From Chthonomonas sp. (GTDB lineage: Bacteria; Armatimonadota; Fimbriimonadia; Fimbriimonadales; Fimbriimonadaceae), in contig JAEURP010000013.1 in the NCBI GenBank assembly GCA_016788585.1, positions 1 through 32,896 on the forward strand: a DNA stretch of 32,896 nucleotides. Reading direction: 5' to 3'. Positions 511-32,858 of the stretch are shown here, one piece after another; the first letter of the stretch is position 1; every line of letters starts with the position of its first letter. A program made the translations under genes and the position numbers. The notes below the pieces were generated by a model that was not told the origin of the DNA, did no database searches, and saw only the letters and a list, made by a program, of their open reading frames with translations.

Positions 511-548
511 TCAACCCTCCCCCAGCCCCTCGCAAGCTTGAGAGGGGA
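511..548 (+). repeat. Palindromic repeat A, left copy
   Basis: A 38-bp element with a C-rich lead followed by a hairpin: CCCCTC (526-531) pairs with GAGGGG (542-547) around the palindrome CAAGCTTG (533-540). The reverse complement of 32821-32858 matches it at 35 of 38 positions, including the first 21. It is therefore one copy of a dispersed family, inverted relative to the right-end copy. Confidence 0.85.
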
Positions 549-581
549 GAATGGGGACGCCTCGCGTGGAGTTGGATGCAG

Positions 582-637
582 AACCCCTCTCTTGACCACG
601 CTTCGCTTTGGTCTTCCTCTCCCGCAAGAGGAGAGGA
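582..637 (+). repeat. Palindromic repeat B, left copy
   Basis: The element starts AACCCCTCTC (582-591) and carries the 16-nt block CTTCCTCTCCCGCAAG (613-628). Both are found as reverse complements at 32698-32707 and 32642-32657. Between them is a small hairpin with arms GACCA (594-598) and TGGTC (609-613). CCTCTCC (616-622) also pairs with GGAGAGG (630-636). The middle differs from the right-end copy but is still self-complementary. Confidence 0.8.
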
Positions 638-656
638 GGGAACCGCCAACTGCTCA

Positions 657-31333: not shown

Positions 31334-32497
31334 TTACTCATCCACAGACCCAAAGCCAGCGATCACCAAGTCGATATCCGCCGCATCAACTTCGCCGCTC
31401 ACATCCACGTCGGCGTCAGGTGTCGAGCCGCCAGGATAGGTGCTGCCAAAGTCCGCAATCACGGCGTCGATATCCGCCGCGTCCACCTCGCCCGAGCCGT
31501 CCACATCGCCGTTCACCATCGAAATCGTTCCGAGGCTAAAACCACTACCCGTCAAGGTTATGGTCACTCGCCGCCTAAGCCACGAGGAACCATCGAGCAC
31601 GAGCTCTGCCGAGCCCGTCGCCGTCGAGGCTACCGCGAGGCTAATGGCAGAGCTACTCGAATTCGCGGTGATCACACCCGATCCCACCGTGCTCGTCCCC
31701 TGCATGATCGAGTAGGCGATCGCCCGTGGCATGGCGAACGCGCTCACCGAACCACCAAGCTCCATCGTGCCCCCGAGTTCGACATTCTGCGAGCCGATGA
31801 CTTGGAATGGCACTTCCATCTGCGAGCCGCTATTGGTATCCACCATCGTGTACCACTGAAACGACGTGTAGAGCATGGCGTTGGCGCCCACGGGCTGAAG
31901 CTCACCAGGCCGCGTCACGAGCGGCGCAAACGTGTTGCCGGCGCTGGTCAGGCCATAGTCCATCCAATAGGTGCCCTGCGGCAAACTGACCGCAGTAGGG
32001 AAGGTGAGCGTCGCCGACATAATCGGGCGGCTGGTAAGGCTCGAGCTGCTGCGTCCCGTTCGATAGATACCGCTGAAGTCCGTGAATGTGAGGATATTAG
32101 TCGTCAAATCGCCGGCAACAATGTTTGATCCCGGCTGCCCCGGCACGCCATCCCAAATCCGCAGGACACCGGTGTTGAACTGCTCGGTGGTCGAACCATT
32201 CGTCCGAAAGCCGTAAACAACAAAACTCGACACACTCCAGCCGCCCGCGGGCACCGTAAAGTCATCTGCCTGGTGCAGCGGCCCCGTCGCGGTCGCGTTC
32301 AGGTAGTTCACGCTATAGCCGAGAACTGTGTTCGATACCGCCCCAACAGACTGCAACTCGCTAAACGTCGTCCCCACCGGCGCGGTATTGCCCAAGTGAT
32401 GCGTCGGCCCCGTCGACATCGGGCCATTATCGTGAAGGACGGCGGCCTGGGCCGAGGCAATTGCCGAGAACATGGAAAGGAGCGCAACCTGCTTCAT
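31334..32497 (-). CDS. Secreted protein with paired dockerin-like calcium loops at the C terminus
   Basis: About 387 residues from ATG 32497, which begins a signal peptide (MKQVALLSMFSAIASAQA, mature AVLHDNG). The frame continues upstream to 32569 without a signal-like start. The first 200 or so residues are beta-rich, Thr/Ser/Gly-rich (DDFTVPAGGWSVSSFVVYGF, LRIWDGVPGQPGSNI) and resemble a jelly-roll/lectin-like fold. The C-terminal part from about 240 parallels the protein at 737: a beta unit with QGTSTVGSG and LDGSSWLRRRVTITLTG, then DVDGSGEVDAADID twice (329-387), ending FGSVDE. The function is unknown. Calcium-stabilised binding or surface attachment is plausible. Confidence 0.8.
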   Translation of the reverse strand: MKQVALLSMFSAIASAQAAVLHDNGPMSTGPTHHLGNTAPVGTTFSELQSVGAVSNTVLGYSVNYLNATATGPLHQADDFTVPAGGWSVSSFVVYGFRTNGSTTEQFNTGVLRIWDGVPGQPGSNIVAGDLTTNILTFTDFSGIYRTGRSSSSLTSRPIMSATLTFPTAVSLPQGTYWMDYGLTSAGNTFAPLVTRPGELQPVGANAMLYTSFQWYTMVDTNSGSQMEVPFQVIGSQNVELGGTMELGGSVSAFAMPRAIAYSIMQGTSTVGSGVITANSSSSAISLAVASTATGSAELVLDGSSWLRRRVTITLTGSGFSLGTISMVNGDVDGSGEVDAADIDAVIADFGSTYPGGSTPDADVDVSGEVDAADIDLVIAGFGSVDE

Positions 32498-32631
32498 CAC
32501 CCATAGAGTATCCGAGCTAGGCTCGATTCGTTCACCGCCAACGCGAGAAACTGGTAAGGCAGACTCCAATTTAGATAAAGCTATGGAGTGCGCGAGGCTT
32601 GCTAGCTAACTCAACTCTCCCCGCACCCGCC

Positions 32632-32707
32632 CCCCTCTCCCCTTGCGGGAGAGGAAGTTCGAGGAGTCCCGCGCGAAAGCAAGGGAAGCTCGAACAGGAG
32701 AGGGGTT
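32632..32707 (-). repeat. Palindromic repeat B, right copy
   Basis: The outer arms CCCCTCTCC (32632-32640) and GGAGAGGGG (32697-32705) pair, and an inner stem GTTCGAG (32657-32663) pairs with CTCGAAC (32689-32695). The blocks at 32642-32657 and 32698-32707 are exact reverse complements of 613-628 and 582-591. The middle is longer than in the left copy (40 versus 21 bases). Confidence 0.8.
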
Positions 32708-32753: not shown

Positions 32754-32820
32754 CCACGCAGTGGGCTCCCACGCAAGTTTTAGAATTTATCGCGACCACG
32801 CAAGTGGGCACCCAAGCAAC
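32754..32820 (+). repeat. Imperfect direct repeat of about 25 bp
   Basis: CCACGCAGTGGGCTCCCACG begins at 32754 and CCACGCAAGTGGGCACCCAA begins at 32796. The units share most positions, with one inserted A, and are separated by an AT-rich spacer. It lies between repeats B and A and is absent from the left patch. Confidence 0.7.
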
Positions 32821-32858
32821 TCCCCTCCCAAGCCTGGGAGGGGCTGGGGGAGGGTTGA
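32821..32858 (-). repeat. Palindromic repeat A, right copy
   Basis: The reverse complement matches 511-548 at 35 of 38 positions. CCCTCCCA pairs with TGGGAGGG around a short centre, followed by the G-run GGGGCTGGGGGAGGG. Confidence 0.85.

Follow-up and report, generated by a model that had tools for sequence, protein, structure and literature searches.

The two copies of repeat B in the window, which is the whole of contig C25 (32,896 nucleotides) of a 2.38-Mb draft genome of 27 contigs, probably belong to a dispersed repeat of BoxC/PIT/TM type whose second loop (loop 2) is enlarged and folds on itself, as judged from sequence comparison. BoxC/PIT elements are "TM" intrastrand triplex motifs (Holder et al., 2015, PMC4666352). 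The sequence-only reading had described constant outer blocks around exchangeable, self-complementary centres, and this description was borne out by covariation and by the folding of most centres. What it missed is that the outer blocks appear to be the three parts of a triplex-type motif in mirror register, and not two plain arms.

Anatomy and copies of the B element

Both ends of the contig carry a pair of repeats, A and B, in opposite orientations at the two ends. The features are as follows.

511-549, plus strand: left A element (block CCCTCCCC, 2-3 nt, hairpin CCCCTC..GAGGGG), a short-loop form of the B layout.
582-641, plus strand: left B element, a putative loop-expanded BoxC/PIT-type repeat with a minority centre (covariance model R1, E = 2.6e-8).
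582-591, plus strand: 10-nt block AACCCCTCTC of left B (direct reading).
584-591, plus strand: 5' block CCCCTCTC of left B, candidate third strand on the complementary G-rich strand.
592-612, plus strand: variable centre (loop 2) of left B, 21 nt; predicted stem GACCA (594-598) with TGGTC (609-613).
613-628, plus strand: 16-nt block CTTCCTCTCCCGCAAG of left B, followed by AGGAGAGGAGGG (direct reading).
616-636, plus strand: outer hairpin of left B, CCTCTCC-CGCAAGA-GGAGAGG (predicted fold and pattern count).
32630-32707, minus strand: right B element, of the type that is standard in this genome, centre GTTCGAG..CTCGAAC.
32707-32698, minus strand: 5' block AACCCCTCTC of right B; counting the following C, it mirrors the arm over 8 positions and matches it in direct order over 7.
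32697-32658, minus strand: 40-nt centre of right B; stem GTTCGAG/CTCGAAC, the last C of which sits in the 3' block.
32657-32642, minus strand: 16-nt block CTTCCTCTCCCGCAAG of right B, followed by GGGAGAGGGGGG (direct reading).
32634-32654, minus strand: outer hairpin of right B, arms CCTCTCCC-GCAAG-GGGAGAGG (predicted fold and pattern count).
32820-32858, minus strand: right A element, 92% like left A, also of the short-loop form.

Direct reading showed that the 10-nt and 16-nt blocks are identical in the two B copies and that the centres are 21 and 40 nt long, so that the earlier account was correct to the base; the arms that it named, GACCA/TGGTC and GTTCGAG/CTCGAAC, are both present and self-complementary. 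In the right centre, the stem is followed by an internal loop (CT/CTC) and then by a covarying upper stem (TCCC/GGGA). When each element was folded with DNA parameters and compared with shuffles, the right copy gave z = -3.25 and the left copy only a weak z = -1.45; the case for the left copy thus rests on the family. A short tandem array of CCGATAA units lies directly behind the left B element (649-684). The genes that adjoin the two B elements (737-1957 and 31334-32569) encode proteins with dockerin-like C-terminal repeats (NGDVDGSGEVDAADID), and similar dockerin-like genes adjoin the B copies L017 and L020.

Copies in the genome itself were gathered through searches and short stretches. When the right B copy was used as a BLAST query, 12 further strong matches were obtained (84-96% identity including the centre), two of which comprise 5' parts only and in one of which the hairpin is shortened by an internal deletion. 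A covariance model (R1) built from 11 copies, without the left copy, matched the genome at 14 places, one of which is the left copy. Further, the outer-hairpin pattern CCTCNCCN{3,12}GGNGAGG occurred 24 times in the genome vs. four times for a reversed control. The B repeat is not a product of chance in this genome, because 12 further strong matches exist and a model built without the left copy recognizes it. The right centre is the standard of the genome, and the left centre (GACCACGCTTCGCTTTGGTC) is the exception, of another type; the two are not ancestor and descendant.

Six of the 14 B copies lie less than 1.5 kb from a contig end (binomial p = 3.7e-6), namely those at C25 582 and 32630, C2 299, C15 713, C27 1264 and C21 53471 (of 53955). 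This bias may reflect variability between strains at these loci or paralogous neighbours that break the assembly.

Exchangeable centres and loop lengths

The sequence-only reading had proposed collecting copies and examining the variable centre for covariation. In the genome itself, both partners are altered in three upper-stem pairs of the standard centre (T-A or G-C in place of C-G), and the covariation score was 0.102 vs. 0.058 in shuffled alignments (0/500), with slid controls at or below 0.065. For two of these pairs, of the C-G/T-A kind, one or no intermediate was seen. Four copies from G044, a relative in another genus, share the same plan, with CTTCGAG..CTCGAAG around a different upper stem. 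When they were included, four pairs with 16 cells changed on both sides were counted and the score rose to 0.274 vs. 0.081 shuffled (0/500; slid controls at or below 0.078), although the copies are few and related, so that these counts are supportive and do not represent independent events.

Of 301 genomes, 64 gave a match to model R1 with E no higher than 0.1, the matches near this threshold likely including chance ones. In the relatives' copies that were printed, the outer blocks are constant and each genome has its own typical centre: CGGTTCGCTTCGCTCACCG-like in G057, CTTCGCGC..GCGCGAAG in G042 and G015, CTTCGC..GCGCGAAG around another loop in G115, and CCGTTCGCTACCGCTCACGG in the congener G003. 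Only a few nucleotides, without a hairpin, separate the blocks in G008, G155 and G294. With ACGCTTCGCTT flanked by GACC and GGTC, the centre of the left copy is similar to that of G057. The R1 search of congeners yielded no match in G002 and G004 and only a weak one in G001, two congener assemblies being incomplete, which indicates that it was in this lineage that the standard B copies increased in number.

An exact-pattern scan (CCCCTCWCC, 12-42 nt, CCTCTCCCNCAAGGGGAGAGG) of 84,980 species genomes returned at least 119 stretches, from Bradyrhizobium, Caulobacter, Devosia, Sphingomonas, Gemmataceae, betaproteobacteria, Lysobacter, a Nitrospirae MAG and others. Among the matches listed, at least 136 distinct centres stand between identical outer blocks. 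The median folding z of these 136 centres was -3.1 against mononucleotide shuffles and 87% had z < -1; a simple stem score of at least 5 was reached by 111 of the 136, vs. 19 of 136 after shuffling, among the matches listed. Given both results, the centres are not unstructured in most copies; unstructured centres or a lack of covariation would have spoken against the earlier proposal, and neither was observed. The outer blocks stay constant while the loop hairpin differs between copies and species, with its foldability kept.

The length of loop 2 is about 21-45 nt in B elements and 12-60 nt elsewhere. In viral contigs, where the scan was open to 0-30 nt, the distinct loops among the matches listed numbered 50 at 0-7 nt, none at 8-13 nt and 36 at 14-30 nt; the fraction of the longer loops with a stem score of at least 5 was 0.50-0.58 vs. 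0.02-0.12 after shuffling, again among the matches listed. Elements in fetched loci outside the scan pattern, a sample that leans to long loops, had loops of 2-6 nt in 50 cases, 7-11 nt in two and at least 12 nt in 204. A sister type, CCCTCATC with the hairpin CTTCTCCC/GGGAGAAG (viral contigs, L560-L658), has loops of 13-27 nt in nearly all cases, and these are folded; the CCCTCATC/CTTCTCCC repeats often occur in inverted pairs. To judge from these lengths, the connecting loop seems to be tolerated if it is short or if it is folded.

Certain internal loops are fixed within centre subfamilies, such as CT/CTC in this genome and A.A in sphingomonads. Mismatches in centre stems (L221-L437) are likewise non-random (C.T 23 and A.A 17 vs. 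A.G 2, T.T 2 and G.G 0), and they stem from subfamilies with fixed internal loops, for example CTA-GGC..GCC-A-AG in sphingomonads.

Mirror register, mobility and upkeep

The hairpin CCTCTCCC-loop-GGGAGAGG makes up the 3' part of the element, and its arm recurs in the 5' block in mirror order, not as a direct repeat (CCCCTC(A/T)CC vs. CCTCTCCCC). This order is expected if GG(T/A)GAGGGG on the complementary strand runs antiparallel along the purine arm, where an A in the block would give a T.A-T triplet. Across 1175 hairpins with homopyrimidine arms from the fetched loci, the mirror order beat the direct order 287 to 97, vs. 154 to 147 with shuffled upstream sequence; since the copies are related to one another and a pattern helped to select some of the loci, these counts, like those of the loops, are not independent. 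Differing arms come with correspondingly mirrored blocks (CCCTCTCCC/CCCTCACCC, CCTTCTCCC/CCCTCATCC, CCTCCCCCT/ACCCCCACC and TCCTCTCCT/ACCTCACCT). In 11 of the 12 B copies listed from the genome itself, the mirror run exceeded the direct run (it spans 7-8 of 8 positions; in the left B element, 584-591, seven positions vs. six), and because arms such as CCTCTCC are themselves mirror-symmetric, much of this signal rests on one or two positions.

We also considered the outer arms as a plain long-range duplex, which is possible where CCTCTCC can pair with GGAGAGG. However, the A in the commonest block, CCCCTCACC, breaks such a duplex yet fits the mirror register, and the mirror order outscores the alternative; we therefore rejected this candidate. 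One counter-example is copy L017 (1504-1581), in which the block (CCCCTCACC) and the purine arm (GGGGTGAGG) have changed together in such a way that they fit a plain duplex and the local hairpin is broken.

On the G-rich strand, the order of parts is the pyrimidine arm CCTCTCCC, a 5-nt loop, the purine arm GGGAGAGG, the hairpin loop 2 and the third strand GG(T/A)GAGGGG. When this strand is single, for example in replication, the arms would pair and the third strand would fold back on the purine arm in reverse-Hoogsteen register. A self-folded centre would hold the joined parts near each other, and hence the third strand near its target, at any centre length, which would explain why many sequences are tolerated as long as they are self-complementary. 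The anatomy, the mirror register, the covariation between arm and block and within the centre, the gap in loop lengths and one insertion into a gene are apparent in the DNA itself; we infer that maintenance acts on the three-part fold and that this fold arises on DNA in single-stranded form.

The insertion is copy L019, situated in frame inside an aminotransferase-like gene of 446 codons. The genes of congeners lack the repeat (FVRFPSPQEGASAWSE in G001 vs. FVPFPSAPSSPLAGEEVRGVLSDSETSSNRRGVAWSE here, the congener sequence differing at the site), indicating that the element reaches new places. L019 is the clear gene-internal copy; most other open reading frames that overlap copies look spurious, and L020, for example, sits between two real genes. 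Such mobility, together with the two Y1/RAYT-like transposase genes of this genome, would be expected of a REPIN-like element, which has palindromic ends on either side of a variable hairpin spacer and is mobilized in single-stranded form by a REP-associated tyrosine transposase (RAYT, Y1/HUH). The spacers of REPINs are poorly conserved, yet they keep their length, their hairpin capacity and compensatory changes (PMC3116915), and the same pattern, a variable spacer that keeps its hairpin capacity, was found here. We nevertheless consider this explanation unlikely. Both Y1/RAYT-like genes (L009, G000:C6:111306-111605, and L010, G000:C26:16211-16444) are flanked by other repeats, of the CGACCTTWCACCAGTG type and the GGTTGGGCACGGGTGGGAAG / CACCCATGGCACCAACC type, and not by the B repeat; among 59 Y1 loci of this phylum, a single triplex-type motif lay within 500 bp of the Y1 match, that is, there was no association; and the outer blocks are, in their commonest form, mirror partners and not inverted ones. 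Y1/RAYT was rejected as the mobilizer on the first two of these grounds.

Upkeep by mutation without selection is rather improbable as the whole explanation, although it may contribute. Replication would stall at palindromes and template switching would copy one stem arm onto the other, so that centres drift yet stay self-complementary; such perfecting of palindromes could yield a pattern similar to that of selection, and replication errors that preserve pairs could account for part of the centre covariation. The stems are near perfect, the paired changes in this genome usually lack intermediates, wobble pairs show no strand bias, and PIT elements stop DNA polymerase in vitro, according to work cited in PMC4666352. 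However, mutational upkeep alone leaves unexplained the mirror relation of block and arm, the absence of 8-13 nt loops among the matches listed and the fixed internal loops of subfamilies.

The earlier suggestion of an RNA role was not supported: a transcribed repeat whose stem-loops act in RNA stability or termination would suit the strong RNA fold of the right copy (z = -3.65) and the position of several copies directly behind genes, but it is very improbable, since wobble-type mismatches show no strand preference across 206 centres (G.T 30 and A.C 40 of 1388 pairs) when one RNA strand under selection should favour G.U, an Rfam 15 search of the window gave no match at gathering score, one copy lies within coding sequence, and PIT elements had neither promoter nor terminator activity in the earlier tests that PMC4666352 cites. 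The wobble symmetry and the Rfam result favour an explanation at the level of DNA, although single copies may still be transcribed.

Comparison with known repeat systems

Like REPINs (Bertels and Rainey, 2011, PMC3116915), B elements have conserved ends, a variable spacer that keeps its hairpin with compensatory changes, and a species-specific expansion. Unlike REPINs, they showed no association with RAYT genes, and their ends appear to be not a pair of inverted REPs but a three-part motif of the mirror type. The GTAG/CGTC REPs and the Rickettsia palindromic elements (Di Nocera et al., 2013, PMC3733652) are also small palindromic repeats, some of them in frame in protein genes, and CGTC REPs likewise are without a dedicated transposase (PMC3733652). 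In contrast to GTAG/CGTC REPs, such tags do not define the ends of B elements; these families were compared by description and not matched, and B block sequences were not found in the text of PMC3733652. A motif noted there for some transposase-flanking repeats, GGGGWSAS, appears to fit GGGGAGAG, which we regard only as a lead.

The E. coli TM consensus is CCCTCNCCC N3-6 GGGNGAGGG N3 GGGNGAGGG; in vitro, an isolated TM strand adopts a stable triplex, no triplex was seen in footprints from E. coli cells, and TM loci are more variable between strains (PMC4666352). The cellular relevance of BoxC/PIT has been open since its description: the motifs fold in vitro, but footprinting in vivo and assays of function came out negative. 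The present variant offers an independent handle on this question, because its third strand, arm and loop differ from lineage to lineage and one can ask whether they change together. A folded three-part structure would lead one to expect both the gap in loop lengths (0-7 or at least 14 nt) and the mirror covariation; if both hold in a full survey, repeat catalogues miss a large class, and the natural centres are ready variants for biophysical and genetic tests. More tentatively, hairpin-centred triplex repeats might form a large class across many bacterial phyla that published loop limits exclude, and the loop gap and mirror covariation might show, on evolutionary grounds, that the three-stranded fold itself arises in cells and is kept up, perhaps because some protein or replication process acts on the fold and spreads the element. 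No hairpin-loop variants of CCTTCTCCC-type repeats or PIT elements are described in the open-licence literature searched; we claim novelty on the basis of these open-licence papers and only at the level of a variant.

Like BoxC/PIT/TM, the B element has a pyrimidine arm, a short loop, a purine arm and a mirrored third block of the same G/C-rich sequences, and it is dispersed in many bacteria, often in inverted pairs. With respect to the ITxF class II description, CCTCTCCC-GCAAG-GGGAGAGG has arms within 6-15 nt and a hairpin loop within 1-6 nt, and the third block is compatible with antiparallel G.GC, A.AT or T.AT triplets, as judged from the copies in this genome and the family-wide mirror advantage. 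E. coli TM motifs are reported to be always intergenic (PMC4666352), whereas one B copy here lies inside a gene. The search for TM motifs allowed loops of 1-6 nt and an earlier one 0-10 nt (PMC4666352). The A elements and the relatives' centre-less copies fit this short-loop layout; in contrast, loop 2 of the B element, between purine arm and third strand, exceeds both limits and folds as a variable hairpin of its own, and we therefore class B as a loop-expanded variant and not as a member of BoxC/PIT/TM.
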